Part shown: positions 1,718 to 63,068 of the stretch, piece by piece | Layout of the letters: the number at the start of each line of letters is the position of its first letter | How positions within the stretch are numbered: position 1 is the stretch's first letter | Assembly: GCF_020297055.1 (NCBI RefSeq) | Contig: NZ_JAIXCQ010000004.1 | Coordinates: 186,001 to 250,000, forward strand | Source: Isoptericola luteus | GTDB taxonomy: Bacteria > Actinomycetota > Actinomycetes > Actinomycetales > Cellulomonadaceae | Length of the DNA: 64,000 nucleotides | Reading direction: 5' to 3' | Position numbers and translations under genes: made by a program | Notes under the pieces: generated by a model | Seen by the model: the letters and a program-made list of their open reading frames with translations, nothing else | The model's database searches: none | Told to the model about the DNA's origin: nothing

Positions 1718-1780
1718 GTGCTCACTCTGTCACCCGCCCACGCCCACCGCGAAACCCGCCGAGGGCCGCAGGACGACGAC

Positions 1781-1814
1781 GAGGGCGGCCCCTGCCGGAG
1801 CAGGGACCGCCCTC
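1781..1814 (-). terminator. Hairpin terminator after rplS
   Basis: Arms 1781-1794 and 1801-1814 pair over 14 bases with a single G-U wobble in the minus-strand RNA. The loop is six bases, and there is no U-tract, as is common in high-GC actinobacteria. It lies 44 bases past the rplS stop and separates rplS from lepB. Confidence 0.75.
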
Positions 1815-1857
1815 GTGCGGACCGGGCGTCGGCGGCGGACCGCCGGCGCCCTGCGGG

Positions 1858-2217
1858 TCACTTGCCCGTGGGGGTCTCGCGACGCTCGCGGATCTTCGCC
1901 TTCTTGCCGCGCAGGTTGCGCAGGTAGTACAGCTTGGCGCGGCGAACCACGCCACGCGACACGAGCTCGATCGAGTCGATCGTGGGGGCGTGCAGGGGGA
2001 ACGTGCGCTCCACCCCGACACCGAAGCTCACCTTGCGGACGGTGAAGGTCTCGCGGACGCCGCCACCCTGGCGGGCGATCACGATGCCCTGGAACGCCTG
2101 GACGCGCGAGCGGTTGCCCTCGACGACCTTGACGTTGACCTTGACGGTGTCACCGGCGCGGAAGTCCGGGGCGTCGTTGCGCAGCGATGCTGCGTCGACG
2201 GAGTCGAGAGTGTGCAT
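1858..2217 (-). CDS. rplS: 50S ribosomal protein L19
   Basis: L19 is a structural protein at the 30S-50S interface of the ribosome. The 119-residue product shows the full family pattern: [22 protein letters not shown]-type core, GVERTFPLH, and the basic C-terminus [21 protein letters not shown]. The ATG start at 2217 is preceded by GGGGAGA. Longer in-frame extension upstream has no family support. It is separated from trmD by 173 bases and followed by a hairpin terminator. The order rpsP-khpA-rimM-trmD-rplS is the conserved bacterial arrangement. Confidence 0.98.
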
Positions 2218-2390
2218 GGTTGTCTCCCCGCCCTGCCACAGGTCAGGAGCAAGCTCGTGGCCCGCGCGCGGCGCGGGTCCGGTTCGTGTCGGTCGTGGCG
2301 GTGGGCCGGCTCGTTCGCCCGGGCATGATGTCGGGAGCTCCCCTGTGGCAGAGGCCCGCAGTGGCGCCCGGACGGCGACACACCGAGGGT

Positions 2391-3281
2391 CTATTCTGCC
2401 ACAGCCTGCGCGCCCGGCGTGCCCGTGTGACGCAACCGTCCGTCGGCCACCGCCCAGCCGAGTTCCGCGAGCACCGTGAGGTCGGCCCGGTCGAGGTCCG
2501 CGACGTCGAGCGACGCGACCATGTCGGGACGGCGGGCGGCCGTGCGCACCAGCGCCTGGTCGCGCCGCCAGCGCTCGATCCTCGCGTGGTGCCCGGACAG
2601 CAGCACCTCGGGGACGTCGTGGCCCTCCCACGACGGCGGCTTGGTGTAGACCGGGTACTCGAGCAGCCCCGCGGCGCCGTGGGACTCCTCCACCAGCGAG
2701 TGCGGGTTGCCGACCACGCCCGGCAGCAGCCGCCCGAACGCCTCGATCATCACCAGGGCGGCGACCTCGCCGCCGTTGAGCACGTAGTCGCCGATGGACA
2801 GCTCGCTCACCCGGTGCCCCGCGGCGCGCGCACGCTCGGCGACGCGCGCGTCGATGCCCTCGTAGCGGCCGCACGCCACCACGACGTGCTCCTCGCGAGC
2901 CAGGGCCTCCGCGTGCCGCTGGGTGAAGACCTCCCCGGACGGGGTCGGCACCACGAGGTGCGCGGCGCCGGCCCGGACGCCCGCCGCACCGTCCGCCGCA
3001 CCGTCCGCCGCACCGTCCGTCCCGCCCGCCGGGTCGCCCGCCGGGTCACCCGGTGTGCCGAGCACGTCGTCGAGCGCACGCCCCCACACGTCGGGCTTCA
3101 TGACCATGCCCGCGCCGCCGCCGAACGGCGTGTCGTCCACCGTCCGGTGCCGGTCCGTGGCCCAGTCGCGCAGGTCGTGCACGCGCAGGTCGAGGATGCC
3201 CGTGCGGCGGGCCTTGCCGACCAGCGAGAGGTCGAGGGCGGCGAGGTAGTCGGGGAAGATCGTCAGGACGTCGACGCGCAC
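2391..3281 (-). CDS. trmD: tRNA (guanine-37-N1)-methyltransferase
   Basis: It transfers a methyl group from S-adenosylmethionine to G37 of tRNAs, preventing +1 frameshifting. The 296-residue product starts [13 protein letters not shown] and has the trefoil-knot SAM-binding segment [12 protein letters not shown] (161-172) and the [10 protein letters not shown] motif. GTG at 3281 was preferred to GTG at 3293 because GGGGAG precedes it by four bases and the family begins exactly here; the alternative would add four residues and overlap rimM. Residues about 75-106 are a Gly/Ala/Asp-rich insertion built on 12-bp DNA repeats (about 2981-3021), longer than the usual linker before the knot. Confidence 0.95.
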
Positions 3282-3282
3282 G

Positions 3283-3852
3283 TCACTCCCCACCCGCCTC
3301 GGCGGGCCGGTCGTCCGCCCGGTCCACGACGGCGGAGTCCGCGTCGCGCGCCAGCAGCCCGCCCGGCGGCGTCAGCACGACACGGCCGCCGGCGACGTCC
3401 ACGACCGGGACGATCGCTCGCACGAAGGGCACGAGCGTGCGCACCGCGCCGGACGCGAGCGGCTCGCGGACCACGAGCGCGTCGTGCGCGGGCAGGTGGT
3501 CCAGGCCGACGACCTCGCCGACGACCGTCCCGTCCTCCAGCTCGGCACGCAGGCCGGCGAGCTCGTGGGGGTACCAGGCGTCCTCCTCGTCCGAGACGTC
3601 GACGTCCGTGACGAGCTCGGTCCCCCGCAGCGCCTCGGCCGCCGAGCGGTCGGAGGCCTCGGCGAAGGTCACGAGCCAGCGGCCCTGGTGCACGCGCGTG
3701 CCCGTGATCGTCAAGGGCCCGGCCGACGGTGGCTCGGTGCGCAGCACGGCCCCCGTCACCAGTCGCTCCTCGGGCACGTCGGTGCGCAGGTCGAGCCCGA
3801 CCTCGCCCCGGAGTCCGTGCGCGCGCCCGATCCGTGCCACCACCAGCTGCAT
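3283..3852 (-). CDS. rimM: Ribosome maturation factor RimM
   Basis: RimM assists late assembly of the 30S subunit head and binds S19. The 189-residue product has the N-terminal [18 protein letters not shown] motif followed by a beta-barrel RimM domain, and a C-terminal PRC-barrel part containing [12 protein letters not shown] and [16 protein letters not shown] at 3852 has a perfect AGGAGG seven bases upstream, so it was chosen over the longer open frame. It ends two bases before trmD starts, indicating coupling. It begins only 45 bases after a strong hairpin, so its transcription depends on read-through or a short unseen promoter. Confidence 0.96.
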
Positions 3853-3896
3853 GTCGCCTCCTGTCCAGAACCCGCCGGGTCGATCCCGCCGGGACA

Positions 3897-3948
3897 CGAC
3901 GAGGCCCGGTCCCACTGTCGCGCTGGACGGTGGGACCGGGCCTCGTCG
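3897..3948 (-). terminator. 19-bp perfect hairpin between khpA and rimM
   Basis: Positions 3897-3915 and 3930-3948 are perfectly complementary over 19 bases with a 14-base loop. It lies 30 bases after the khpA stop and 44 bases before the rimM start. In this conserved operon it would act as an intrinsic terminator or partial attenuator. Confidence 0.8.
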
Positions 3949-3978
3949 ACGGTCTTGCGGCGGGGTGCCCGGCGACCG

Positions 3979-4218
3979 TCAGCGCCGGTCGACGTCGACG
4001 ACGTCGACCCGCACCGGGCCGTCGGTGGCCAGCGCACCGACGACGGTGCGCAGGGCCTTGGCCGTCCGACCACCCCGGCCGATCACGCGGCCCAGGTCGT
4101 CGGGGTGCACCCGCACCTCGAGCAGGTCACCCCGGCGCTGCGACCGCGCGGACACCTGGACGTCGTCCGGGTTGTCCACGATGCCGCGCACCAGGTGCTC
4201 GAGGGCCTCGGCGAGCAT
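3979..4218 (-). CDS. khpA: KH-domain RNA-binding protein KhpA
   Basis: This is a 79-residue single KH domain protein. The family (KhpA, formerly YlqC) binds RNA and works with KhpB in cell-division and elongation control in Gram-positive bacteria. The RNA-gripping GxxG loop is seen in DDLGRVIGRGGRTAKALR (G47-G50). Its start overlaps the rpsP stop (TGATG), so it is translated with S16. The position between rpsP and rimM is conserved. Confidence 0.93.
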   Translation of the reverse strand: MLAEALEHLVRGIVDNPDDVQVSARSQRRGDLLEVRVHPDDLGRVIGRGGRTAKALRTVVGALATDGPVRVDVVDVDRR

Positions 4219-4634
4219 CAGGCCTCGGCCTCAGCCTCGGCGGGTGCCGCCGGCTCCTCGGCCTTCTTCTCGGCAGCCTTCGCCTTGACCTTCTCGGCCT
4301 CGGCGGAGACGGCCTCGACCGCGGCGGCGGCGTCCGCCACCGTGGCCTTGGTCCGCAGGGTGCCCTCGGCACCGGGGAGACCCTTGAACTTCTGCCAGTC
4401 ACCGGTGACCTTGAGGAGCGCGGCGACCTGCTCGGTCGGCTGCGCGCCGACGCCGAGCCAGTACTGCGCCCGGTCGGACTGGATCTCGATGAGCGACGGC
4501 TCCTCGGTCGGGTGGTACTTCCCGATCTCCTCGATGACACGACCGTCGCGCTTGGAGCGCGAGTCGGCCACGACGACGCGGTAGTACGGGGCCCGGATCT
4601 TGCCGAGACGCTTCAGACGAATCTTGACGGCCAC
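4218..4634 (-). CDS. rpsP: 30S ribosomal protein S16
   Basis: S16 is an assembly protein of the small subunit. The first 85 or so residues match the family: [20 protein letters not shown], then [18 protein letters not shown] and [15 protein letters not shown]. The remaining 50 residues are an Ala/Glu/Lys-rich tail typical of actinobacterial S16 and probably flexible. It is the first gene of the rpsP-khpA-rimM-trmD unit, with a recognisable promoter about 130 bases upstream. Confidence 0.98.
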
Positions 4635-4759
4635 TTGGGTGGTGTCTCCTGGTTCTGGTGGGATGACCTCGCACGCTGCCGGGTGGGGTCCTGGCGGTGG
4701 TCGGGTCGGGACACGGCTCGCACAGGTGAGAGGGGCCTGGGCATGCCGAGTACCTGCCC

Positions 4760-4789
4760 ATTGTGCCAGACGGCGCGCGCCCGCTCCAA
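4760..4789 (-). promoter_or_regulatory. Vegetative promoter of rpsP
   Basis: On the minus strand TTGGAG (4789-4784) and CACAAT (4765-4760) are separated by 18 bases. This gives three of six and four of six matches to the vegetative consensus. Transcription would start near 4753, leaving a leader of roughly 120 bases. Confidence 0.55.
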
Positions 4790-4829
4790 CCGGCCCTCGT
4801 GCCGGACGCGTCGTCGCGACGGCCGGGCG

Positions 4830-5942
4830 TCAGCCGCGCACGACCTGGCCGCGCAGCACGACGGCCGTGGGGTGCCGCAGCACCTCGATGTCCTCGCGCG
4901 GGTCCGCCGGGTAGACCACGAGGTCCGCGCTCGAGCCGTCGACGAGGGTGCCGTACCCGAGGTACTCCCGCGACCGCCAGCTCGCCATCGCCACGACCTC
5001 GGCGGCGGGGATCCCCGCGGCGACGAGCTCGGCGCACTCGTCCGCGACCCGGCCGTGTCCGATGGTCCCGCCGGCGTCGGTGCCCACGAGCAGGGACACC
5101 CCCGCGTCGTACAGCGCGCGCACCTGCTCGTAGCGGCGGGCGTACAGGCGCCGCATCCGCGCCGCGTAGACGGGGTACCTGCCGTCCGCGCGCTGCGCGA
5201 TCGCCTCGAACTGCGCCACCTGCAGCAGCGTCGGTGTCACCGCGATCCGGCGCTCGGCGACCTCGTCCATGCGCGCGACGGGGATGCCGGTGCCGTGCTC
5301 GATGCCGTCGACACCGGCCGCCAGCAGGTCGTCGGTGACCTCCTCGGAGAACGCGTGGACGGTGACGCGCGCCGCCTCGGCGTGCGCGGCCTCGACCGCG
5401 TCGGCGAGCACCTGGCGCGACCACAGGGGCCGCAGGTCGCCGTCCGGCCCCAGGTCGCGGTCGATCCAGTCGCCCACGAGCTTGACCCACCCGTCCCCGG
5501 CGCGGGCCTGGGCGCGGACCGCCTCGGGCAGCCGGGCGGGGTCGTCGAGCTCGAGCCCGTAGTGGCGCAGGTAGCGCTTGGGGCGGGCCAGATGGCGGCC
5601 GGCGCGCACGAGCCGCGGCAGGTCGGTCCGTTCCTGCACCCACCGGGTGTCCGACGGCGAGCCCGCGTCGCGCACGAGGAGCACCCCGGCGTCCCGGTCC
5701 CGCCGCGCCTGCTCCTCGGCCGCCTGCGCGTCCACGGCTCCGCCGGCGTCCAGGCCCACGTGGCAGTGCACGTCGACGAGCCCGGGCAGCACCCAGCCCT
5801 CGAGCTCGCGCGTGGCGCTGCCCTGCGGCGACGGCCGGGTCAGGCTGACGCGGCCCTGGCGCACCCACAGCTCGCCGACCTCGCGGTCGTCGCCCAGCAG
5901 GACGTGACCCGTGACGTGCAACGGGACGTGCGGCACCGACAT
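4830..5942 (-). CDS. Metal-dependent amidohydrolase
   Basis: This is a 370-residue amidohydrolase-superfamily TIM-barrel enzyme; the substrate is unknown. Metal ligands are visible in order: VDVHCHVG (His59, His61), a candidate bridging Lys154 in GWVKLVGDW, His196 in VTVHAFSE, His216 in GIEHGTG, and Asp289 in LLVGTDAGG. The C-terminal SADLVVYPADPRED and VVLRGQVV segment is the small beta-sandwich typical of imidazolonepropionase- and prolidase-like members. It begins six bases after the ffh stop, so it is probably co-transcribed with ffh. No signal peptide is seen, so it should be cytoplasmic. Confidence 0.88.
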   Translation of the reverse strand: MSVPHVPLHVTGHVLLGDDREVGELWVRQGRVSLTRPSPQGSATRELEGWVLPGLVDVHCHVGLDAGGAVDAQAAEEQARRDRDAGVLLVRDAGSPSDTRWVQERTDLPRLVRAGRHLARPKRYLRHYGLELDDPARLPEAVRAQARAGDGWVKLVGDWIDRDLGPDGDLRPLWSRQVLADAVEAAHAEAARVTVHAFSEEVTDDLLAAGVDGIEHGTGIPVARMDEVAERRIAVTPTLLQVAQFEAIAQRADGRYPVYAARMRRLYARRYEQVRALYDAGVSLLVGTDAGGTIGHGRVADECAELVAAGIPAAEVVAMASWRSREYLGYGTLVDGSSADLVVYPADPREDIEVLRHPTAVVLRGQVVRG

Positions 5943-5947
5943 GCGCG

Positions 5948-7582
5948 TCAGCGCCCGCCGAGCAGCTTGTCGAACCCGGCGGGGAGCTCGAGGTTCGCCA
6001 GGTCCTGCTCGGTGGGCTGTGCGCCCTTCGCGCCACCCATGCCGAACGCCGATCCCGGGGCCGACGAGGGCGCGACACCGCCGCCGAGCGCCTTGGCCAT
6101 CGCCTCACGCTCCTGCTGCGCCCGCTTGGCCGGGTTCCCGGACTTGCCCTTCTTCGCCTTGGCGGGCGCCTGCTTGCCGCGCGACTTCTTGCCGCCCCCC
6201 GGCATCCCCGGCATGCCGGGCATCCCCGGCATCCCGCCGGGCATCCCCGGGAGGCCGCCGCCCTTGCCCATCTGGCGCATCATCTTCTGCGCCTGGGTGA
6301 AGCGGTCCAGCAGCCCGTTGACGGCGGACGTCGTCTGCCCCGAGCCGCGGGCGATGCGCGCGCGGCGGGAGCCGTTGATGATCTTGGGGTTGTCGCGCTC
6401 GGCGGGCGTCATCGACTGGATGATCGCCTGGACGCGGTCGACCTCGCGCTCGTCGAAGTTCTCGAGCTGGTCGCGCATCTGCGCCATGCCCGGCAGCATG
6501 CCGAGCATCTTCTTCATGGAACCGAGCTTCTTCATCTGCTGCATCTGCACCAGGAAGTCGGACAGCGTGAAGTCCTCGCCGCTGGCGACCTTGGCCGCCA
6601 TCTTCTCGGCCTCGCCGGCGTCGAAGGCGCGCTCGGCCTGCTCGATGAGGGTGAGCACGTCGCCCATGTCGAGGATGCGCGAGGCCATGCGGTCCGGGTG
6701 GAACACCTCGAAGTCGGTGAGCTTCTCACCGGTCGAGGCGAACATGATCGGCCGGCCGGTGACCGTCGCGACCGACAGCGCGGCACCACCGCGCGCGTCG
6801 CCGTCCAGCTTCGACAGGACCACGCCGGTGAAGTCGACGCCCGCGAGGAACGCCTGCGCGGTCGCGACCGCGTCCTGACCGATCATCGCGTCGATGACGA
6901 ACAGGACCTCGTCCGGCGTCACCGCGTCGCGGATGTCCGCGGCCTGCTGCATGAGCACCTGGTCCACGCCGAGCCGGCCCGCGGTGTCGACGATGACGAC
7001 GTCGTGCTGCTTGGCGCGTGCCTCGGCCACGCCCTGGCGGGCGACGCCGACCGGGTCGCCGATGACGGCGTCGGTCTCCATGCCCTGGTTGCCCGGGTGC
7101 GGCGCGAACACGGGGACGCCCGCCCGCTCGGCGACGACGGACAGCTGCGTGACGGCGTTCGGGCGCTGCAGGTCCGCCGCGACGAGCAGCGGCGTGTGCC
7201 CCTGCTCCTTGAGCGCGAGGCCGAGCTTGCCCGCGAGCGTCGTCTTGCCGGCGCCCTGCAGGCCGGCGAGCATGATGACGGTGGGCGGCGTCTTGGCGAG
7301 CTGCAGCGCCCGCGTCTCGCCGCCGAGGATCCCGACGAGCTCGTCGTTGACGATCTTGACGACCTGCTGCGCCGGGTTGAGCGCGCCCGAGACCTCCGCC
7401 GACAGCGCGCGCTCGCGCACCGACGCCGTGAACTGGCGGACGACGGGGACGGCGACGTCGGCGTCGAGCAGGGCGCGGCGGATCTCCCGCACGGTCGCGT
7501 CGATGTCCGCCTCGGACAGCCGACCACGGCCGCGCAGGTTCTTGAACGTCGAGGTGAGCCGGTCCGACAGGGAGTTGAACAC
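5948..7582 (-). CDS. ffh: Signal recognition particle protein Ffh
   Basis: Ffh is the GTPase subunit of the SRP. It binds 4.5S RNA and signal sequences of nascent membrane proteins and docks with FtsY. The 544-residue product has the N domain, then the G domain with P-loop GLQGAGKTT (107-115), a DTAGR motif and TKLDGDARGGAAL. The methionine-rich M domain follows, and after it a Gly/Met/Pro repeat stretch (about 435-465, GMPGMPGMPG) and a long basic tail, together about 90 residues longer than E. coli Ffh. The start is GTG at 7582; an AGGA nine bases upstream could serve as ribosome-binding site. Confidence 0.97.
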   Translation of the reverse strand: MFNSLSDRLTSTFKNLRGRGRLSEADIDATVREIRRALLDADVAVPVVRQFTASVRERALSAEVSGALNPAQQVVKIVNDELVGILGGETRALQLAKTPPTVIMLAGLQGAGKTTLAGKLGLALKEQGHTPLLVAADLQRPNAVTQLSVVAERAGVPVFAPHPGNQGMETDAVIGDPVGVARQGVAEARAKQHDVVIVDTAGRLGVDQVLMQQAADIRDAVTPDEVLFVIDAMIGQDAVATAQAFLAGVDFTGVVLSKLDGDARGGAALSVATVTGRPIMFASTGEKLTDFEVFHPDRMASRILDMGDVLTLIEQAERAFDAGEAEKMAAKVASGEDFTLSDFLVQMQQMKKLGSMKKMLGMLPGMAQMRDQLENFDEREVDRVQAIIQSMTPAERDNPKIINGSRRARIARGSGQTTSAVNGLLDRFTQAQKMMRQMGKGGGLPGMPGGMPGMPGMPGMPGGGKKSRGKQAPAKAKKGKSGNPAKRAQQEREAMAKALGGGVAPSSAPGSAFGMGGAKGAQPTEQDLANLELPAGFDKLLGGR

Positions 7583-7626
7583 CAGGCAGGTCCTATCCGA
7601 GATCTCGTGGGATGCGGTTCCCTAGC

Positions 7627-9441
7627 CTACCGGCCCTGCTCCGGGGCACCCGCCTGCGCGGCGAGCGCCGCCCGGGCCCGCCCCGTGAGGTCGTCCACGA
7701 GGCTCGCGCGCCACGCCGTCCACCCCGCGGGGCCGAGCGACGCGGCGTCGGCCTCCGTGACGACCCGCAGCCCCTCGAGCAGGTCGGCGCGGTGCTCCAC
7801 CGCGGCGAGCAGCTCCGCCAGCGTGGCCGGGTCCTCGAGGTCGCGCGACGTCGCCAGCGTCGCCAGCGTGAGGTGGTGGCGCACCAGCGTGGCGACGTCC
7901 CGCGCCAGGCCGGCGCCGAACCCGAGCCGCTCCACCAGCGGCCCCGCGACGCGCGCCCCCTCCACCGAGTGGTCGCTGCTGCGCGCCCCGCGGCGCTTGC
8001 CGACGTCGTGCAGGAGCGCCGCGAGCAGCACGAGCTCCGTCGGCGCGGCCGGTGCCCCGGTCGTCGCGGCGACCGTCCGCCGGACGCGCGCGGCCCGCGC
8101 CACCGTCTCCACGAGGTGCCGGTCGACGGTGTGCCGGTGGACCGCGGCCCGCTGCGGACGGTTGCGCACCGCCGCCCACTCCGGCATCCAGGTGGTCACG
8201 ACGCCGGCGAGGTCGAGCGCCTCCCACACGCCGACCTGGGCGGGCCCCGCACCGAGCAGCGTCAGCAGCGCCGTCCTCGCGGTGGCGGGCCACGGGTCCG
8301 GCGGGGGCGGGCACTGCGCCAGGGAGTGCACGGTCACGGGCGACAGCGCGAGGCCGGTGCGGGCCGCCGTCGCGGCCGCGCGCAGGGCGAGCAGGGGGTC
8401 GGCGGCCGGCTCCACCCCGACGGCGAGCACGAGCTCGCCGTCGTGCTCCACCAGGCCGTCGCCCACCGCGCGCAGGCGGGGCGCGGACCGCCGGCCGCGC
8501 ACCACGACCGTGCGTCGGGGTGCCGGCCGCTGCAGCGCCTGCCGTGCCCGGCGCACGGTCGAGTCCAGGGCGTAGGAGATCTCCCGTCCCGCCTCGGCGA
8601 GGCTCGCCAGCAGCTCGTCGGGGTCGTCGTGGCCGCAGCGCTGCGCGACCTCGTCGAGGTCGGCCAGGACCAGCCTCGTCGCCCGCCGCCGCGTGACGAC
8701 GTGCACCGTGTCCCGCACGTCGAGCAGGTGCGTCAGCGCACGGTCCACCCGGCCGTGCGGCCGGTCCGTGAGCCACGTCGCCGCGAGCGCCGACAGCAGG
8801 ACGGCGTCGCGGATGCCGCCCCGGGCCTCCTTGAGGTCGGGCTCGACGAGGTAGGCCAGCTCCCCCGCCCGCTCCGCGCGCTCCCTCGCGCTGTGCAGCA
8901 GCTCGGGGAGCCGGCGGCGCGACGCCGAGCGCCAGTCGGTGAGGATCGCCGACGCCGCACGGTGCACGACGACGGCGTCGCCGGCCACGGGCCGCACGTC
9001 CAGCCAGCCCACCGCCGCGGGCAGGTCCTTGGAGGCGAGCTGTCGCGTCTGGCTCAGGGAGCGCACGGCGTGGTCGAGGTCCATCCCCCCGTCCCACAGC
9101 GGGTACCAGAGGGCCTCGGCGACGCGGGCCAGCTCGGCGGGCTTGTGCGTGCGCCCGTCGTGCACGAGCACGAGGTCCAGGTCCGACAGCGGCCCGAGCT
9201 CCCCGCGGCCGAGGCTGCCGACGGCCGCCAGCGCGATCCCCGCGGGATCGACGTCGGCGGTCGCGGCGGCGTAGAGGGCGCCGAGGCGCTCCACGGCGAG
9301 CTGCTGCAGGGCCGCGCGCCGCGCCACCCCGGACCGGCCCGGGCCCGTCAGCGCGGTGGCGGCCCGGAGCAGGTCGACCCGGAGGTCGTCGACGGGGCCC
9401 CGCACCCCGGGCGGGGTGCGGGGCCCGTGCTGGTCCGGCAA
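7627..9441 (-). CDS. glnD: [Protein-PII] uridylyltransferase family protein without ACT domains
   Basis: GlnD modifies the T-loop tyrosine of PII; in actinobacteria this is usually adenylylation. The 604-residue product carries the nucleotidyltransferase motif [16 protein letters not shown] (75-90), the GlnD-type helical region ([15 protein letters not shown]), and an HD domain centred on LLHDVGK (His478-Asp479). It stops about 100 residues later, so the two C-terminal glutamine-sensing ACT domains are absent, and only 44 bases remain before ffh. The listed start is TTG at 9441, one base after the glnK stop; GTG at 9405 is equally possible, and neither has a clear ribosome-binding site. Confidence 0.85.
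9395..9426 (-). terminator. 14-bp perfect hairpin at the glnK-glnD junction
   Basis: Arms 9395-9408 and 9413-9426 are exact complements with a four-base loop. The hairpin begins 16 bases after the glnK stop and overlaps the first codons assigned to glnD, including the alternative GTG at 9405. It would uncouple glnD from amtB-glnK by termination or by hiding the start. Confidence 0.7.
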
Positions 9442-9442
9442 C

Positions 9443-11052
<1,610 letters not shown>

Positions 11053-11121
11053 GAGTTGTTCCTCCCTCACCAGCCGGGCGGCCGGGTCGGGACAACCGTC
11101 GTGGAGCGGGATTTCCCCTGG

Positions 11122-11150
11122 ACTCTTCTCGTGTGACGCCCGCGTGACAA
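11122..11150 (-). promoter_or_regulatory. Putative amtB promoter with paired GTCAC motifs
   Basis: On the minus strand TTGTCA and AAGAGT are spaced by 17 bases. Two GTCAC words six bases apart (complements at 11133-11137 and 11144-11148) overlap it, resembling half of a GlnR box (GTnAC-n6-GAAAC). A GAAAC-n6-TTTAC word lies further upstream (11164-11179). Spacing between the pairs is not canonical, so the GlnR reading is tentative. Confidence 0.35.
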
Positions 11151-11193
11151 GAGCCCCGCGGGCGTAAACATCACGTTTCGCGCTGCGGCGCCG

Positions 11194-12393
11194 TCAGCCG
11201 AGCAGGCCGTCGACGAACTGCTCCGCGTCGAACGGCGCCAGGTCGTCCGGGCCCTCGCCGAGCCCGACCAGCTTGACGGGCACGCCGAGCTCGCGCTGCA
11301 CCGCGACGACGATGCCGCCCTTGGCGGTGCCGTCGAGCTTGGTCAGGACGATGCCGGTGACGCCCGCGACCTCACCGAAGACGCGGGCCTGGTTGAGCCC
11401 GTTCTGGCCCGTCGTGGCGTCGAGCACGAGCAGCACCTCCGCGAGCGGCGCCTCGCGCGTGATCACGCGGGTGATCTTGCCGAGCTCGTCCATGAGGCCC
11501 GCCTTGTTCTGCAGGCGGCCGGCGGTGTCGACGAGCACGACGTCGGTGCCGTCGGCGCGGCCCTTCTTCACCGCGTCGAACGCCACGGCCGCGGGGTCGG
11601 CGCCGTCGCGGTCGGAGCGGACGGTCTGCACCCCGACGCGCGAGCCCCACGTCTGCAGCTGGTCGGCGGCGGCGGCGCGGAACGTGTCGGCCGCGCCGAG
11701 CACCACGGTGCGGTCCTGCGCCACGAGCACGCGCGCGAGCTTGCCGACCGTCGTCGTCTTGCCCGTGCCGTTGACACCGACCACGAGCACCACGGCGGGA
11801 AGCCGGGCGCCGTCCTCGCCGACGGGCCCGGTGGTGGTCACCGCGCGGTCCAGCGACGGGTCCACGATGGCGAGCAGCTCCTCGCGCAGCAGCGCGCGCA
11901 CCGAGGCGGCGTCCCGCACGCCGAGCACGCGCACGCGGGTGCGCAGCGCGTCGAGCAGCTCGCCGGCCGGGCCCGCGCCGATGTCGGCCAGCAGGAGCGT
12001 CTCCTCCAGCTCGTCCCAGTCGTCCTCTGTGAGGTGGTCCCGCGACAGGACGCTCAGCAGGCGGGCGCCGAGCGGCGAGCCGGACCGCGCGAGCCGGTCC
12101 CGCAGACGCACCATGCGCCCGGCGGCGGGCTCGGGGGTCTCGAGGGCCGGCGCCTCCGGCTCGACGACGTCCGGCACGGCCATGCCGGGCGTGCTCGGTG
12201 GCACGGTGCCCGGTGCGGCCGTCCCGGGTGCGACGACGGCGTCGGGGACCGACGGCGGCGCCGTGCCGGTCGGAGCGGACTCGTCCCTCGTGGTGGTCCC
12301 GCGGCGGCGGGACCGCGGGACGAGGAGGGCCGCGCCGCCGCCCACGAGGACGACGACGCCGAGCAGGATCCAGAGCCAGAGCAGATCGTTCAC
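11194..12393 (-). CDS. ftsY: Signal recognition particle receptor FtsY
   Basis: FtsY is the membrane-docking GTPase for the SRP-ribosome complex. The 399-residue product starts with a hydrophobic helix (about 4-24), a membrane anchor typical of actinobacterial FtsY, then a Pro/Ala/Glu-rich linker (30-92). The NG domain follows with P-loop GVNGTGKTTT (206-215), DTFRAAAADQL, DTAGRLQNK and TKLDGTAKGG. It lies 45 bases after a small membrane-protein gene and downstream of smc, the usual smc-ftsY order. Confidence 0.97.
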   Translation of the reverse strand: MNDLLWLWILLGVVVLVGGGAALLVPRSRRRGTTTRDESAPTGTAPPSVPDAVVAPGTAAPGTVPPSTPGMAVPDVVEPEAPALETPEPAAGRMVRLRDRLARSGSPLGARLLSVLSRDHLTEDDWDELEETLLLADIGAGPAGELLDALRTRVRVLGVRDAASVRALLREELLAIVDPSLDRAVTTTGPVGEDGARLPAVVLVVGVNGTGKTTTVGKLARVLVAQDRTVVLGAADTFRAAAADQLQTWGSRVGVQTVRSDRDGADPAAVAFDAVKKGRADGTDVVLVDTAGRLQNKAGLMDELGKITRVITREAPLAEVLLVLDATTGQNGLNQARVFGEVAGVTGIVLTKLDGTAKGGIVVAVQRELGVPVKLVGLGEGPDDLAPFDAEQFVDGLLG

Positions 12394-12438
12394 GGCCCCA
12401 GTCTTCCAGAGCGGGTCACGGGAACGGGCCCCTGTGCG

Positions 12439-38625: not shown

Positions 38626-38631
38626 CCCGGT

Positions 38632-38699
38632 GCGCCCTCAGTGGTACGCCCTCAGTGGTACGCCCTCAGTGGTACGCCCTCAGTGGTACGCCCTCAGTG
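38632..38699. repeat. 14-bp tandem repeat, about five copies
   Basis: The unit ACGCCCTCAGTGGT (first copy with one change, last copy truncated) runs through the gap between two convergent genes and covers the stop codon of the CoA-binding protein gene on the minus strand. Each unit contains CACTGA on that strand, so every copy supplies a possible stop. It is a minisatellite likely to vary in copy number. Confidence 0.95.
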
Positions 38700-39803: not shown

Positions 39804-40173
39804 ACACCGGCCGGACGCTCCCGACATCCGTCTGGCCGCACACGCCGGACACCCTGCCGGATGATCTCTCGACGCGGACTCCGGACGCACTGCGCCTGCG
39901 TGCACTTATGTCCTACTTTGTGCAGTACGGAACCTGGAGAGGGGCGTGCTGGTGCGCGTTCGGGTGCATCCGAGAGCGTCCGCAGAGCGTCCAGAGATCA
40001 CCGAGCAGGACGCGCCAAGGGTCGGCTGTTGGAGTTCGTTGCGGTCGAGGACGAACCTGACGGATGGTGGGTCTTGGCATGCGATGGTCGACACAACGAA
40101 GGTGCGGGACATCACCTCCGAGCGGCGAACCACGTCTCTCCGCTAAGCACAAGCCGACGACGAGGACCAGAAC
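39804..40173. other. Gene-poor stretch before the split HhH-GPD gene
   Basis: Nothing here is recognisable as a gene. One frame ends at 40196 and reads GRLLEFVAVEDEPDGWWVLA, followed by CDGRHNEGAGHH, which looks protein-like, but it lacks a start and a family. A 66-codon frame (39946-40146) is shorter still. Base composition is slightly lower in GC than the flanking core, so this may be decayed sequence at the left edge of the island. Confidence 0.4.
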
Positions 40174-40269
40174 GTGACGATGACCGGGGACCCTGACGCG
40201 GACGAGCTCCTCGACACCGACCCGTTCGCGTTGCTGGTCGGCATGCTGCTGGACCAGCGCAGCACGTAG
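40174..40269 (+). pseudogene. Stranded 5' end of the HhH-GPD DNA-glycosylase-like gene
   Basis: The frame from GTG 40174 reads TGDPDADELLDTDPFALLVG then MLLDQ, and after Gln28 runs into RST and a TAG. It matches 18 of 25 residues of TGDPQTDRLLSNDFFALLTG-MLLDQ at the start of the intact gene at 42,723, and its base composition is that of the host. I read it as the original beginning of that gene, cut off by insertion of the island at codon 28. Confidence 0.8.
40240..40258 (+). repeat. Left attachment-like repeat
   Basis: GGCATGCTGCTGGACCAGC, coding G-M-L-L-D-Q in the stranded fragment. It differs from the right copy only by two C/T changes. Confidence 0.6.
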
Positions 40270-40289
40270 CCATGAACTATCGCCGCAGG

Positions 40290-40628
40290 TCAGAGTGTTT
40301 CGCCGTGGATCGGGGACTTGCGATCCCACTCCGGGAGTCTCAGATGGCTCTCCTCGATGTGCTGCACCTCCCCGAGCCGGACGAGCAGGTCGATCGTCTC
40401 CTGCGACACGGGCGGTGCCCCGCGGACCGCGCCCGTCATCCACTCCGACTCCGCCTTTTCTCGCTTGATCTCCCGCTCCAGCCGTCGCCGCGCGGACCGT
40501 GAGGACTGTCGCTCGCGGGGGTTGGTCAGCCCGTCAAGCTTCGCGAGCATCTTCTTCCGCTGAAGAGGCCCTGCACCCTCGTAGTCCCGCGTCAGGGACG
40601 CACCGGCATCCGTCGCCCGGACGTCCAT
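40290..40628 (-). CDS. Hypothetical basic protein of the island
   Basis: A 112-residue, highly charged protein: GPLQRKKMLAKLDGLTNPRE and RQSSRSARRRLEREIKREKAESEWM form a likely basic helix or coiled coil. A more acidic C-terminus follows, with PPVSQETIDLLVRLGEVQHIEE. No family is recognised. ATG at 40628 comes six bases after the stop of a 38-codon gene on the same strand, so the two form an operon read away from the XRE gene. DNA or RNA binding is possible from charge alone, but not shown. Confidence 0.55.
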   Translation of the reverse strand: MDVRATDAGASLTRDYEGAGPLQRKKMLAKLDGLTNPRERQSSRSARRRLEREIKREKAESEWMTGAVRGAPPVSQETIDLLVRLGEVQHIEESHLRLPEWDRKSPIHGETL

Positions 40629-40634
40629 CGCGTC

Positions 40635-40751
40635 CTACAGCGCTTGCCGCACAGCGTCCTCAGCCTCCGCCTTGGTGTCAGCCTCCACGAACCGGTGACT
40701 GACACCGCACACGTCCACACGCCACAGTGCCATGCGGCGAATGCTACTCAT
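40635..40751 (-). CDS. 38-residue small protein of the island
   Basis: The frame from ATG 40751 reads MSSIRRMALWRVDVCGVSHR then FVEADTKAEAEDAVRQAL. A later ATG at 40733 would give 32 residues starting MALWRVDV. The beta-beta-alpha look (WRVDVCG, HRFVEADT, KAEAEDAVRQAL) resembles small accessory folds in which a strand pair precedes a helix. A near-consensus TATAAG lies ten bases before the first ATG, and the next gene follows after seven bases. I do not recognise it. Confidence 0.5.
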   Translation of the reverse strand: MSSIRRMALWRVDVCGVSHRFVEADTKAEAEDAVRQAL

Positions 40752-40761
40752 AGTCTGTCGA

Positions 40762-40767
40762 CTTATA
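40762..40767 (-). promoter_or_regulatory. -10 element of the divergent island operon
   Basis: TATAAG on the minus strand, five of six consensus bases. TGGGAT lies 17 bases upstream. Initiation would fall about four bases before the 40751 ATG. The XRE gene starts 25 bases away in the other direction, so XRE binding here could control both sides. Confidence 0.5.
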
Positions 40768-40792
40768 CAGTGCACCATCCAAGAATCCCAGG

Positions 40793-41047
40793 ATGGGCAA
40801 CTACGACGAGCGCCTCCAAGCTCGTCTCCACCACCTGGGACAACGCGTGCGCACCGAGCGCGGCCGACTCGGCCTCTCCCAGGAGGATCTCGCCCACCGC
40901 GCAGGACTCCACCGCACCTACGTGGGCTCTGTCGAACGCGGGGAACGAAACATCAGCATCGGCAGCCTTTACGCGCTGGCCGACGAGCTCGACATCTCGG
41001 CGTCGGCGCTACTAACCGACCCTCTTTCCCAAAGTTCCACCAAGTAG
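40793..41047 (+). CDS. XRE-family helix-turn-helix regulator
   Basis: An 84-residue protein that is little more than a Cro/CI-type HTH: RTERGRLGLSQEDLAHRAGL, then HRTYVGSVERGERNISIGSL and YALADELDISASALL. The HRTYVGSVERGERNIS segment is the form seen in controller proteins of restriction-modification and other toxic or defence modules. ATG at 40793 follows CCAGG. It lies 35 bases upstream of the ATPase and is read with it; autoregulation and control of the divergent operon are likely. Confidence 0.88.
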   Translation: MGNYDERLQARLHHLGQRVRTERGRLGLSQEDLAHRAGLHRTYVGSVERGERNISIGSLYALADELDISASALLTDPLSQSSTK

Positions 41048-41082
41048 ACAAGACAATCTTCCGAACGGCACTCAGGAGCAGC

Positions 41083-42672
41083 ATGAGCGAGTCATCGTTG
41101 ATCTCGGACCGGCAACTTGCCCGAGCTGTTTCTAACATCACCGACCGGTCGGAAAAGCAGGGAGATCTCGACGTTCTTCGTGACACGTACGTGGACACAG
41201 GTGTCCTCCAACAGGTCGCCAATCACGCGAATCAGATCCTCTACGGCCGTCGAGGCACTGGAAAAACCCACGTGTTTCAAGTGCTACGGTCCGAACTTGA
41301 GGAGACCCACGGGTCGTACGTGATCTACCTCGACGTAAGAGTTCTCGGCAGCGCGCATACATTCCTCGACCCGGAAAAGCCGTTGGCCGAACGGTGCGTC
41401 GCGGTGTTCAAGGACCTCCTCTCCAACATCCAGGGAAAACTGCTCGACATCGTCACCGCGCCCGAGTCGGATGGAAGCGGCCTGGAAGAAGTGAGCGATT
41501 TTGCCGATACAATCACCCGGAAGGCCGCCGAGGTCAACGAGCGCAGCGTCTCGACGTCAAACCAGGAAAGCACGTCGGCCGGCACGAAGGCTGAGGCGGG
41601 AATGTCGGGTATGAAGCCCGGTCTCTCCCTTGGCGTCGACGACAACCACTCGCAGACGCAGACCCACGAGTCACAGTACACAGAAGCACTCCGCCAGTCA
41701 CTCGTGTTTAGCGAGATTTATCACGGACTCGAAAGGGCGCTTCGAGCGCTCGGGGCCAATCGATTGACTATCCTCATCGACGAGTGGACGGCACTCCCCG
41801 TCGAACTCCAGCCGTTCATCGCGGAGTTCATCAAGCGCTCCCTCTTCCCTAGCAGTCTCGTAACAATCAAGATCGCTTCTCTGGAGTACCGTTCGCGCTT
41901 TACACTCCCTCGCGAAGGCAATCCGATCGGCTTCGAACTGGGTCCTGACATCAAGGCTAACCTCGATCTTGACGATTACTACGTCTACGAACGCAACGCT
42001 GACAACGTGGTCGAGATCTTTCACGAACTGCTCTATCGCCACATTGTTTCCGGTATGACTGATGATGCACTCAGGGGCTATAACGTTCGCGATGCGACCT
42101 CGTTCCGCTCCCGTCTGTTTACCGAGAAGGCGACCTTTATTGAATTGGTTCGCGCGGGTGAGGGCGTGGTCCGGGACTTTCTCGGCATCTTTAGTTCTGC
42201 ATTCTTCAAGGCCAAGTCGACCGGTCGTCAGAAGATCGACCTAAACTCAGTCGAGGAGGCTGCTCGAGACTGGTACGAAACCGACAAGTCCACGGCCCTC
42301 TCCGAAGGTCAGCGAACCGCCCTCCATCGCATTATCACCGACGTGATCGGGAGCCGACAAACCAAGATGTTCATGCTGTCGCGCGAGCATGCAGATAACA
42401 AAATGATTCTCTCCCTCTTTGACCTGAGGCTCATCCATCTCATTTCGCGCGGATATAGCGACAAGGAGAACCCGGGGCAGCGATACAACATCTATGCACT
42501 CGACTATGGCACGTACGTTGACTTGAAACGCACAAAGGCGGAGCCCACCGATTTCGAAATTGAAGAGGAGGATGACACCCCGTCCCCCCGAGATCGCATC
42601 GTCCCCTTCGCCGATAAGCGCAGCATTCGACGAGTCATTCTTCGAAGCGAAATCTTCGACGACCTCGAGTGA
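41083..42672 (+). CDS. ORC/Cdc6-like AAA+ family ATPase of unknown function
   Basis: A 529-residue P-loop ATPase. N-terminal LARAVSNITDRSEKQGDLDV and LRDTYVDTGVLQQV precede Walker A GRRGTGKT (55-62) and, after a Ser/Thr-rich insertion (about 150-200), Walker B LTILIDEW (228-235). The latter half has a helical region and RYNIYALDYGTYVDL, perhaps a winged helix. This type occurs as a solitary accessory gene in actinobacteria. A defence or mobile-element role is my inference from context. ATG at 41083 follows CAGGAG. GC and codon use are plainly lower than in neighbours. Confidence 0.8.
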   Translation: MSESSLISDRQLARAVSNITDRSEKQGDLDVLRDTYVDTGVLQQVANHANQILYGRRGTGKTHVFQVLRSELEETHGSYVIYLDVRVLGSAHTFLDPEKPLAERCVAVFKDLLSNIQGKLLDIVTAPESDGSGLEEVSDFADTITRKAAEVNERSVSTSNQESTSAGTKAEAGMSGMKPGLSLGVDDNHSQTQTHESQYTEALRQSLVFSEIYHGLERALRALGANRLTILIDEWTALPVELQPFIAEFIKRSLFPSSLVTIKIASLEYRSRFTLPREGNPIGFELGPDIKANLDLDDYYVYERNADNVVEIFHELLYRHIVSGMTDDALRGYNVRDATSFRSRLFTEKATFIELVRAGEGVVRDFLGIFSSAFFKAKSTGRQKIDLNSVEEAARDWYETDKSTALSEGQRTALHRIITDVIGSRQTKMFMLSREHADNKMILSLFDLRLIHLISRGYSDKENPGQRYNIYALDYGTYVDLKRTKAEPTDFEIEEEDDTPSPRDRIVPFADKRSIRRVILRSEIFDDLE

Positions 42673-42722
42673 CTGCCGCCGTGGCGCAACTCATCGAGTG
42701 AATGCAGAGGAGTCGATTTCAC

Positions 42723-43316
42723 ATGAGCACCGAACTTTGGATCACCGGAGATCCGCAGACAGATCGATTACTCTCTAACGATTTCTTCGCACTCCTAACT
42801 GGCATGTTGTTGGACCAGCAGTACCCGATGGAGCACGCGTTCTCCGGCCCGCGCAAGATCCGCGACCGCCTCGGATCGATCGATCCGCGCGCCGTGGCCG
42901 ACGCGGACCCGGACGAGTTCGTCACGCTCGCCACCACTCCCCCGGCCGTCCACCGTTACGGGCGCTCGATGGCGGGCCGCATCCAGGCGTTGGCGCACGT
43001 CGTCGTGGACGAGTACGACGGCGACGTCACCGCGATCTGGACCCGGCCCGGGGCGGACGGCGCTCCCACGGGCGCCGAGGTGCTGGCGCGGCTGAGGGCG
43101 CTGCCCGGCTTCGGGGAGCAGAAGGCGAAGATCTTCCTCGCGCTGCTCGGCAAGCAGCGCGGCGTCCAGCCGGCGGGGTGGCGCGAGGCCGCCGGACACT
43201 ACGGCGACGACGGCTCGCGGCGGTCCATCGCCGACGTCACCAGCCCCGAGTCCCTCGTCGAGGTGCGGGCCTTCAAGAAGGAGCAGAAGGCCGCGGCCAA
43301 GGCCGCCAAGGGCTGA
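42723..43316 (+). CDS. HhH-GPD-type base-excision repair protein
   Basis: A 197-residue helix-hairpin-helix DNA-glycosylase-like protein. The hairpin LRALPGFGEQKAKIFLALLG (124-143) is clear; the usual downstream catalytic Asp is not obvious, as in other members of this short actinobacterial group. The first 32 or so codons are AT-richer and differ from the stranded host 5' end at 40,174, while the rest has host composition. The gene is thus a chimera, with the island supplying its start. ATG at 42723 was chosen; a longer frame to 42702 exists. Confidence 0.85.
   Translation: MSTELWITGDPQTDRLLSNDFFALLTGMLLDQQYPMEHAFSGPRKIRDRLGSIDPRAVADADPDEFVTLATTPPAVHRYGRSMAGRIQALAHVVVDEYDGDVTAIWTRPGADGAPTGAEVLARLRALPGFGEQKAKIFLALLGKQRGVQPAGWREAAGHYGDDGSRRSIADVTSPESLVEVRAFKKEQKAAAKAAKG
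42801..42819 (+). repeat. Right attachment-like repeat
   Basis: GGCATGTTGTTGGACCAGC within codons 27-33 of the intact HhH-GPD gene. The composition changes from island-like to host-like within or just after it. Confidence 0.6.
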
Positions 43317-43335
43317 CCGCCCGCGCCCGCGAGCC

Positions 43336-44385
43336 TCAGAGCCTGCCGCCCGCCCGCAGCGCGCCCAGCACGTCGTCGACCGGGACGGCGTGGCTGGTCC
43401 CCCGGTGCCCGACCGTCGTCGTCGCGCAGAGGACGGACGCCAGCAGCGCCTCCTCGACCGCGTCCATGGTCGCGGCGAACAGCGGGTCCAGATCGCCGTC
43501 GGGCACCAGACGGTCGTCCGGGTGCGCGGTGCTGAACGCCAGCGCGTAGTCGCCGCTGCCGTGCGTGAAACCGGCCCCGACCCGCCCCATGGCGAACACC
43601 GCCCGCCGCGCGACCCGGTCCAGCCGCCGGGCGTCCAGCGGGGCGTCCGTGGCGACGACGATCATGCAGGAGTTGCCGTCGTCAGGTGCCGGGAGCCTGG
43701 AGGCGTCCCCGCGCACCGGCACCGGCACGCCCAGCACGGTGAGCGTCCCGGAGAAGTTGGACTGCACCACCGCACCGACCGTGCGCCGGCTCCCGGCGAC
43801 GTCAACCACCCGCGACGACGTGCCGATCCCGCCCTTGAACCCCAGCGCCGTGGTGCCCGTGCCCGCCCCGACGCAGCCCTGCGCCACCGGTCCGGACGCC
43901 GCGCCGTCGAGCGCGGCCCGCACGTGCGACTCGGCGATCGGGCGGGCCCGGACGTCGGAGCAGAACCCGTCGTTGGTCTCACCGACCACCGGATTGAGGG
44001 TGCGCACCTCCTCGTAGCCGGGGAGCTCCAGCACGTGCGACACGAGCGCGTCGGCGGCCCGGAACGCCGACAGGGTCGCCGTGAGCACGACCGGCGTCTC
44101 CAGCTCGCCGAGCTCGGCGAGCTGGGTCGCGCCGACGAGCTTGCCGTACCCGTTCCCGGCGAACAGCCCGCACGCGAGCGCCCGGCGCTGCCCCGGCCCG
44201 CGCCCCAGCATCTCGGGGACGACGGCGGTCACGCCCGTGTGCAGGCGCGCGCCGTCGTGCAGCGTGGTATGCCCGACGCGCACGCCGGGCACGTCGGTGA
44301 TGGCGTTCCAGGTCCCCGGCGGCTGGTCGCCGACGGCGATGCCGAGCTCGCGCGGCGTCGGGCGGGCTGTCGTCGGGGCGTTCAC
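43336..44385 (-). CDS. P1 family peptidase (DmpA-like Ntn hydrolase)
   Basis: A 349-residue member of the S58 family, self-cleaving aminopeptidases or amidases. Conserved stretches are GTWNAITDVPGVRVGHTTL, GLFAGNGYGKLVGATQLAE, NPVVGETNDGF, GCVGAGTGTTALGFKGG and the cleavage/nucleophile region DDGNSCMIVVATDAPL. GTG at 44385 overlaps the stop of the MerR gene (GTGA), so both are translated together. The natural substrate is unknown. Confidence 0.9.
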   Translation of the reverse strand: MNAPTTARPTPRELGIAVGDQPPGTWNAITDVPGVRVGHTTLHDGARLHTGVTAVVPEMLGRGPGQRRALACGLFAGNGYGKLVGATQLAELGELETPVVLTATLSAFRAADALVSHVLELPGYEEVRTLNPVVGETNDGFCSDVRARPIAESHVRAALDGAASGPVAQGCVGAGTGTTALGFKGGIGTSSRVVDVAGSRRTVGAVVQSNFSGTLTVLGVPVPVRGDASRLPAPDDGNSCMIVVATDAPLDARRLDRVARRAVFAMGRVGAGFTHGSGDYALAFSTAHPDDRLVPDGDLDPLFAATMDAVEEALLASVLCATTTVGHRGTSHAVPVDDVLGALRAGGRL

Positions 44386-62976: not shown

Positions 62977-63018
62977 GAGGCCCGGACGGGTCCGCCGTGG
63001 CGGACCCGTCCGGGCCTC
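62977..63018 (+). terminator. 20-bp perfect hairpin after valS
   Basis: Arms 62977-62996 and 62999-63018 are exact complements; the centre opens as a small loop. It lies 14 bases past the valS stop and is followed by TTCG and T-rich repeats. It could act on both strands between the convergent genes. Confidence 0.85.
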
Positions 63019-63068
63019 TTCGTCGCCTCTTCGTCGCCTCTTTGTCGCCTCTTTGTCGCCTCTTCATG
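63014..63068. repeat. 11-bp tandem repeat, five copies
   Basis: Units GCCTCTTCGTC (x2), GCCTCTTTGTC (x2) and a fifth, imperfect copy run directly out of the terminator's right arm into the tail of the convergent gene's downstream region. The first unit is part of the hairpin stem, which hints that the repeat grew by slippage from it. Confidence 0.9.

Follow-up and report, generated by a model that had tools for sequence, protein, structure and literature searches.

A gene-restoring cassette without a recombinase at the start of an HhH-GPD gene of Isoptericola luteus, probably one of a family accreting at a large serine recombinase site

The 64,000-nucleotide stretch of the Isoptericola luteus genome analysed here (contig NZ_JAIXCQ010000004.1; C21:186001-250000 of genome G000, 3.97 Mb; called the window below) contains an island that splits an HhH-GPD gene of family TIGR03252 and gives it a new 5' end. 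We propose that this island is probably a gene-restoring cassette without a recombinase, derived from an element with a large serine recombinase (LSR), and that it belongs to a family of cassettes accreting at an LSR site within the TIGR03252 gene. Sequence comparison has established empty and occupied sites, breakpoints at a common core, tandem units, a shared left-end motif and four elements with an LSR gene at the same site. The split and restored gene had been noticed in a preliminary description of the window and is confirmed; the interpretation given there, a gene-restoring insertion lacking its own integrase, is supported by the empty sites, by other cargo between the same repeats and by breakpoints located at the repeat.

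The stranded codons of the original gene (40174-40257, GTG ACG ATG ACC GGG ... GAC CAG) run into element DNA with a stop at 40267-40269. In a profile search this fragment matched TIGR03252 over model positions 3-30 (E=7.1e-9), which assigns it to the same family as the complete gene extending from the ATG at 42723 to 43316 (E=5e-89, 296.9 bits at a family cut-off of 136.5). A 19-nt repeat (40240-40258 and 42801-42819; 17 of 19 bases identical, counted by eye) marks both junctions, and an independent repeat search returned 40225-40258 and 42786-42819 at 74% identity. The inserted unit of 2,561 bp replaces the first ~28 codons with an AT-rich foreign start: the 90 nt preceding the site have a GC content of 0.67 in the left and 0.49 in the right copy, and the right copy switches from 0.49 before to 0.72 after the site. 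In 400-nt windows the island ranges from 0.53 to 0.67 and most of the flanks from 0.71 to 0.80. The new start is nevertheless homologous to the old one, the two N-terminal peptides sharing 18 of 25 residues (counted by eye), in line with the preliminary description. The AT-rich right copy encodes DFFAL, as do the element-borne starts of two other Isoptericola genomes (G009 and G001), whereas the intact genes of the genus have other residues. No recombinase or relaxase family was found among the open reading frames (ORFs) of the window in a Pfam search. The features of the locus are listed below; P, P', B and B' label the arms of attachment sites following the serine-integrase convention.

40174..40257, plus strand: stranded original 5' end of the TIGR03252 HhH-GPD gene, ending MLLDQ (E=7.1e-9; matches the genus consensus up to the site only)
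40240..40258, plus strand: left copy of the 19-nt repeat, with the putative crossover core GGACCAG at 40251-40257 (in two LSR elements the predicted attP is most symmetric about the G/A step of this core)
40258..40278, plus strand: left end of the island, P'-arm-like motif, family pattern ~TNCGNTARCCATG, here CACGTAGCCATGAACT (40 left ends conserved to +21)
40290..40628, minus strand: left-end ORF, 112 amino acids (homologues in G009, G095 and G098, remnant in G008)
40793..41047, plus strand: XRE/Cro-type helix-turn-helix protein, 84 amino acids (Pfam HTH_3, 8.1e-14)
41083..42672, plus strand: P-loop ATPase, ORC-CDC6-like, 529 amino acids, cargo (Pfam PF24389, 1.7e-12; NCBIfam Sll1717 family below cut-off)
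42723..42818, plus strand: island-borne AT-rich replacement 5' end, ending at the right core GGACCAG, 42812-42818 (GC content and identity to the genus consensus)
42723..43316, plus strand: restored full-length HhH-GPD gene (TIGR03252, 5e-89; Pfam HhH-GPD, 3.6e-6)
40258..42818, no strand: whole inserted unit of P'-like end, cargo and gene start, 2,561 bp (site-to-site distance; the G009 unit is 82% identical over 2,422 bp)

Among 18 genomes of the genus, 14 carry one uninterrupted gene, and four (G000, G001, G008 and G009) have a stranded start followed by a full gene, a recurrence that argues against a chance arrangement. Relatives with an empty site, and with other cargo between the same two repeats, were what the preliminary description had suggested looking for, and both exist. 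Three cargo types occur in the four occupied genomes: G009 has the element of the window (ATPase 90%, XRE protein 87% and left-end ORF 82% identical in amino acids), the 0.88-kb unit of G008 begins with the same left 106 bp and continues with a DUF4265 gene, and the 2.0-kb unit of G001 contains an AIPR/AbiU-type gene. At two intact loci (L027 and L033) an upstream TIGR00026 match stops ~20 nt short of the gene-start match. Longer gaps upstream of intact genes of the genus were considered as decayed cassettes and rejected; the seven regions inspected have a GC content of 0.74-0.77 and no site-like motif.

Breakpoints were mapped in 15-nt steps by comparing each element with the consensus of the 14 intact genes. 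The left fragment of the window is 0.72 identical to the consensus before the site and 0.28 after it, its right copy 0.63 before and 0.86 after. The left fragments of all occupied genomes behave likewise, with 0.72-0.94 before the core and random values (0.28-0.31) after it, and the right copies of the window, G009 and G001 rise from 0.63-0.67 (intact genes: 0.82-0.94) to 0.86-0.89. The right copy of G008 is 0.92 identical before the core and hence uninformative on the breakpoint. From the identity switch in left and right copies we place the exchange at or next to GGACCAG (40251-40257 and 42812-42818).

Similar insertions are found in a number of actinobacteria. A pattern consisting of a stranded start and an early stop was searched in a collection with one genome per species (84,980 species) and matched 22 stretches, 21 of which are real insertions; the other one (L049, Arsenicicoccus) is a frameshifted gene without insertion. 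Two rows (L056 and L065) repeat those of G001 and G008. In 18 of these 21 cases the contig also includes the gene, downstream of the stranded start (in Schumannella G239 without its 5' part), and a full gene is missing from the contigs of L055, L059 and L060; the genes of L048 and some others appear only in longer stretches. A related pattern matched 13 of 198 Microbacterium genomes, five of them already among the 21 and eight new. In a motif-free TIGR03252 search, 12 genomes of the window's family gave more than one match; five of these have stranded starts (G191, known before, and the new G095, G098, G114 and G176), while the remaining seven hold single genes, C-terminal pieces or split genes. 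In this family, 9 of 221 genomes have the split gene. Together, the pattern matches, the motif-free finds and G000, G009 and G191 amount to 36 genomes with a split gene, from Isoptericola and other genera of its family, Microbacterium, Leucobacter, Schumannella, Blastococcus, Geodermatophilus, Saccharothrix, Streptomyces, one Acidimicrobiia metagenome-assembled genome (MAG) and Actinomycetota MAGs. At 34 loci we could bound 41 units, two or three of them in tandem at six loci; G239 and MicG403 (G403) are outside this set. No LSR was detected in 39 of the 41 bounded units (tblastn with three LSRs). These 39 have a median length of 1,279 bp (range 216-12,398), and 35 of them measure 0.4-3.2 kb.

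Some individual loci are worth describing. In MicG397 (L119, 1596-1812) a 216-bp unit consists of the left motif and a gene start with apparently no cargo ORF, i.e. an "empty" minimal cassette, and two shared cassettes lie farther upstream. The largest unit without a detected related LSR is that of G191 (L067, 12.4 kb), whose long ORFs look RHS/YD-repeat-like by eye and whose two gene starts encode identical stretches of 25 amino acids with differing codons. In the Acidimicrobiia MAG (G234, L076, contig C85), repeated DNA (99.9% over 1,134 bp) lies close to stranded gene starts, and no full gene was matched on this contig. In G176 (L184) the HhH-GPD locus is found at two places on the main contig, one close to each end (C1:13429 and C1:3419580), which may reflect an assembly overlap.

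Four elements at the identical site carry an LSR, namely those of MicG350, Schumannella G239, MicG403 and Streptomyces SM11, and the core GACCAG is common to them and the cassettes. In MicG350 (12.2 kb), G239 and MicG403 the LSR gene starts 31-32 nt beyond the core; the LSRs of G239 and MicG403 are 79% and 86% identical to that of MicG350, the latter being cut at 325 residues by the contig end. The SM11 element of 20.3 kb has its LSR, 32% identical to that of MicG350, at the right end. Resolvase and Recombinase domains are present in the LSRs P0001-P0003, and the MicG350 element also encodes a Prim-Pol protein, an AAA ATPase and a second resolvase. At the Schumannella locus (L079) the right end is rearranged, with a resolvase-like ORF abutting the HhH-GPD gene that lacks its 5' part. 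We checked 44 LSR loci, a few being the same gene twice, and only the four have the gene or its start in their ~1.5-kb flanks. Two of 295 Microbacterium genomes have the close LSR, and in another 22 the relatives do not exceed 53% identity.

For MicG350 and SM11, two of the four LSR elements, a predicted attP was built by joining the element ends, and all centres were scanned for inverted symmetry. The best symmetry is found at the same G/A step of GGACCAG in both, with 14/22 positions in MicG350 (shuffle p 0.0092, with another centre reaching 13) and 16/22 in SM11 (0 of 5,000 shuffles). The predicted arms are TGGTCAACGCA / TGGTTACCGCA and TCGTTAGCAAA / TCGTTAGTGAA, respectively. In an alignment of 40 left ends, information extends up to +21 (~TNCGNTARCCATG), outside any shared coding sequence, with about none beyond, and this motif of ~21 nt, found on unrelated cassettes, matches the P' arm of attP. 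It should be noted that the stop at +10 to +12 was selected by the search patterns; of the 32 rows for which CCA was no selection criterion, 19 have it at +13 to +15, and the six sites found without the motif have the stop in five and TARCCA in four cases. Given the motif at left ends, including sites found independently of it, the cassettes appear to keep a P'-type arm. The right ends of the two LSR elements for which this end is known bear no gene-start copy (0.21-0.26 identity), and the same applies to unit 3 of G221, the sole exception among the 39 LSR-less bounded units. In well-conserved pairs of gene starts, similarity usually begins ~15-20 nt before the ATG, and farther upstream in Saccharothrix and MicG243. 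The preliminary description had left three options for the window, namely an integrase acting in trans, a lost one, or homologous recombination. LSRs at the same site in four other elements, together with the matching half-site on recombinase-less units, speak for a site-specific enzyme, either lost or acting in trans; between near-identical copies, homologous recombination may have taken place.

Cassettes are shared between arrays, and one, together with its gene start, has on sequence evidence been transferred between species. A methyltransferase cassette with gene start is 96.7% identical between M. murale and MYb54 over 901 bp, the homology ending at the core, against ~80-84% in the flanks (gene bodies 0.829, upstream flank 79.7%). 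In MYb54 the old left fragment and the first 27 nt are lost, and a second, GNAT cassette lies between the methyltransferase cassette and the gene, a position suggesting, but not proving, gene-proximal insertion. Five further cassettes, one of them only partly, recur in different arrays: the GNAT cassette in MYb54, MicG397 and M. lacticum, an Abi_2-type cassette in M. lacticum and MicG373, a PIN cassette in MicG243 and MicG397, an APH-type cassette in M. halophytorum, M. lacticum (there interrupted by a transposase-like ORF) and partly Leucobacter, and part of the MicG260 cassette in MicG357. A G233 cassette also matches a G235 contig, with no array position assigned. Cassettes are more alike than the gene regions in MYb54/MicG397 (87.6 vs 75.8%), MicG243/MicG397 (80.3 vs 75.7%) and M. 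halophytorum/M. lacticum (84.5 vs 80.8%). Comparing cassettes by tblastx gave mostly weak, apparently composition-driven matches that were not used.

According to our proposal, an LSR attachment site would lie near codons 25-32 of the TIGR03252 gene, and a cassette would be composed of a P'-arm-like left end, cargo of usually one to three genes, and a host-type promoter-proximal region with the first ~30 codons. Recombination at the G/A step in GGACCAG would strand the old start on the left and fuse the start of the cassette to the remainder of the gene on the right. Since the rebuilt gene again contains the site, further cassettes could be stacked. The units would move as circles, and a helper element, either resident or only transiently present, would provide the LSR in trans.

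Several observations weigh against this proposal. The right ends of 38 of the 39 LSR-less bounded units are coding gene starts and not P arms, so that the units could not use the ordinary attL x attR reaction; what would be needed is recombination of B.P' with B.B', not the textbook LSR pair. The attP symmetry of MicG350 is moderate, and the host target itself is nearly palindromic around the core. An LSR element beside small cassettes was seen at no locus. Five genomes of the window's family were searched with P0001 as query (E<=1e-8): G001, G008 and G191 gave no LSR, and the LSRs of G000 and G009 are distant. P0001-related LSR genes are present in 11 of 23 array genomes, where they are 26-42% identical (the G239 query itself aside); as they are distant and, except for that of SM11, off-site, the search yielded no cognate LSR resident in the window genome. 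Finally, in some pairs the shared cassettes show no greater similarity than the genes (M. lacticum/MicG373, 78-80% vs 81%; MYb54/M. lacticum, 79-82% vs 81%) or roughly equal the gene region in identity (MicG260/MicG357), and between the window and G009 the copies have diverged to the same degree as the gene body (0.82 vs 0.79). In view of these pairs, recent movement is clear only for M. murale/MYb54 and likely for MYb54/MicG397.

No phage or plasmid carrier emerged: the left-site pattern had 0 matches in viral_contigs, and the gene-start peptide had no match among phages. For the LSR P0003 there was no relative in viral_contigs and none in plasmids at E<=1e-30. Relatives of P0001 occur in 98 phage records, all below 60% identity and up to 35.8% among the 20 matches listed. 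The window HhH-GPD protein matched six plasmid records, four of which are replicons of more than 1 Mb.

The main rival explanation assumes that cassettes, as circles or fragments with a ~100-nt copy of the gene start, integrate by RecA-dependent homologous recombination, the left motif being a fossil of the first unit's origin. We regard it as rather unlikely. Left and right gene-start copies can indeed be up to 0.99 identical, and within a genome they resemble each other more than randomly paired copies do (means of 0.831 vs 0.796, p 0.0003, 14 Microbacteriaceae-type loci), which is what one would expect from local exchange; however, the own partner ranks first in just 5 of the 14 loci. The copies of the window, G009 and G001 are only 0.56-0.68 identical, yet they switch at the site, and homologous recombination leaves unexplained why the P' motif is conserved to +21, beyond the shared coding sequence. 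Near-identical pairs (G233, 0.99; G224, 0.98) would also agree with a local duplication of the host gene start, the intervening DNA having accrued later and no mobile element being involved. This is highly improbable, as unrelated cargo lies between the same boundaries in many species; for the window, local duplication is already contradicted, the right copy being AT-rich (0.49) and encoding the DFFAL that is common to the element-borne starts of G009 and G001 and absent from intact genes of the genus.

Each small unit might instead be an immobile, dead remnant of an LSR element, left with its att ends after internal deletion and thus a fossil resembling a cis-mobilizable element (CIME), whose formation by such deletion is described in the review PMC5704250. 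The retained P'-like arm, the 39 units without LSR and the several shared cassettes as diverged as the genes would all be compatible with this scenario. What makes it quite unlikely in our opinion is that one and the same cassette is found at different places in arrays and in different species, once at 96.7% identity against flanks of 80-84%, and that right ends are gene starts instead of P arms in all but one of the LSR-less units.

As to what the cassettes carry, cargo ORFs were called by a simple script, and 20 were picked by hand for Pfam searches. Of these proteins 17 had a match, and 10 of the 20 belong to families of defence or toxin-antitoxin type. The families comprise AIPR, Abi_2, SLFN_AlbA_2, NTP_transf_2 with HepT-like, YoeB with YefM, PemK, PIN, GmrSD, methyltransferase, GNAT, acyltransferase, APH, lactonase, RidA-type and DUF4265 proteins. 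The ATPase of the window is present in 5 of 297 genomes of its order, its own included (E<=1e-20), and the nearest other homologue is 62% identical. The latter (G751, L150/L154) adjoins a gene that we take to be pheT, possibly a second insertion site for ATPase cargo. A PDB sequence search with the window ATPase gave no match; from the company of the other cargo, one may guess at a role in defence.

The left end of the island carries a minus-strand ORF and an XRE gene, an arrangement shared by the window, G009, G095 and G098, with different cargo behind it at least between the window and G095. An in-frame stop shortens the left-end ORF to 112 amino acids in the window, compared to 142 in G009. 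Its homologues (82% in G009, 57-63% in G095 and G098, a remnant in G008) are all located at the HhH-GPD site, as are the two matches obtained among 396 genomes of the window's order. No match was found at E<=1 in Pfam, NCBIfam and PADLOC, and the all-helical AlphaFold model (mean pLDDT 59, pTM 0.25) is too weak for a structure search. The ORF may encode a control or directionality factor. The XRE protein is 87% identical in G009, 53% in G098 and 57-75%, in two pieces, in G095.

Apart from the island, the window contains two tandem arrays, one at 38629-38699 just past an ORF end at 38625 (14-bp unit GGTACGCCCTCAGT, 5.1 copies, 98% matches) and one at 63014-63065 (11-bp unit GCCTCTTCGTC, 4.7 copies).

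Staphylococcal cassette chromosome (SCC) elements occupy a site at the 3' end of rlmH, carry ccr genes, have recombinase-less forms and are bordered by true attL/attR pairs. Likenesses to the cassettes are a serine recombinase, one chromosomal site and tandem accretion (partly according to PMC3146451). SCC units are larger and lie at another site; the target here is the 5' end of the TIGR03252 gene, and the window unit encodes no serine recombinase. The dusA islands and SXT in prfC are likewise much larger than the cassettes described here. They are the precedent for new 5' ends (PMC8409611); they encode an integrase and are mobilizable or conjugative, whereas our cassettes are small and recombinase-less.

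Closest in plan are the ssrA islands of Dehalococcoides, which according to PMC3146451 are arranged in tandem at one conserved gene with gene-end repeats and a serine recombinase, DsiB, beside attL; 15 islands lack an integration module and might be CIMEs in the opinion of the authors. These islands use the 3' end of an RNA gene, whereas the target here is the 5' coding end of a protein gene, reached in several actinobacterial genera by mostly small units that bring a promoter-proximal region and an N-terminus. With CIMEs, the cassettes have in common that a recombinase-less unit lies at an integrase site and that tandem structures arise by accretion, and the window ORFs showed no recombinase or relaxase family in Pfam, while tblastn detected no LSR in 39 of the 41 bounded units. 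A CIME, however, keeps attL and attR (PMC5704250), whereas the cassettes have a left boundary of B.P' type and, G221 unit 3 excepted, a right boundary formed by a gene start or intact gene site, not by a P-type attR.

Integron cassettes, too, are small modules of one to a few genes in tandem at one site; their recombinase need not be linked, and their cargo likewise includes toxin-antitoxin, defence and acyltransferase genes. Unlike in integrons, the site here is of LSR type and lies inside a coding gene. A Pfam scan of the window unit detected no IntI, and no attC was found either, positions 39900-43400 having no Rfam match in a search that used no dedicated attC model. Extending our proposal of LSR-derived cassettes, we tentatively consider a serine-recombinase counterpart of the integron in Actinomycetota, in which B.P' cassettes would be captured and shuffled at the HhH-GPD 5' end by LSRs that helper elements provide in trans and, in the window's family, the left-end ORF would serve as directionality or accessory factor for the borrowed enzyme.

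In the literature searched, mostly without subscription papers, no report on an insertion site at the HhH-GPD 5' end was found, nor any mention of "TIGR03252" or a paper joining HhH-GPD, integration site and serine recombinase. Integrative and mobilizable elements with a serine recombinase and specific integration disrupt dispensable genes, as stated in PMC5704250, which makes gene-restoring 5'-end units tied to a serine recombinase unusual. Our proposal would also open to experiment whether a serine integrase accepts a hybrid B.P' site and an intact attB as partners. As genome-integration tools, the LSRs with their sites are further candidates. If our proposal holds true, actinobacteria would have an acquisition site for small cassettes that we did not find in this literature, and, as half of the examined cargo proteins are of defence or toxin-antitoxin type, the anchor gene may serve as a marker by which others can be located.

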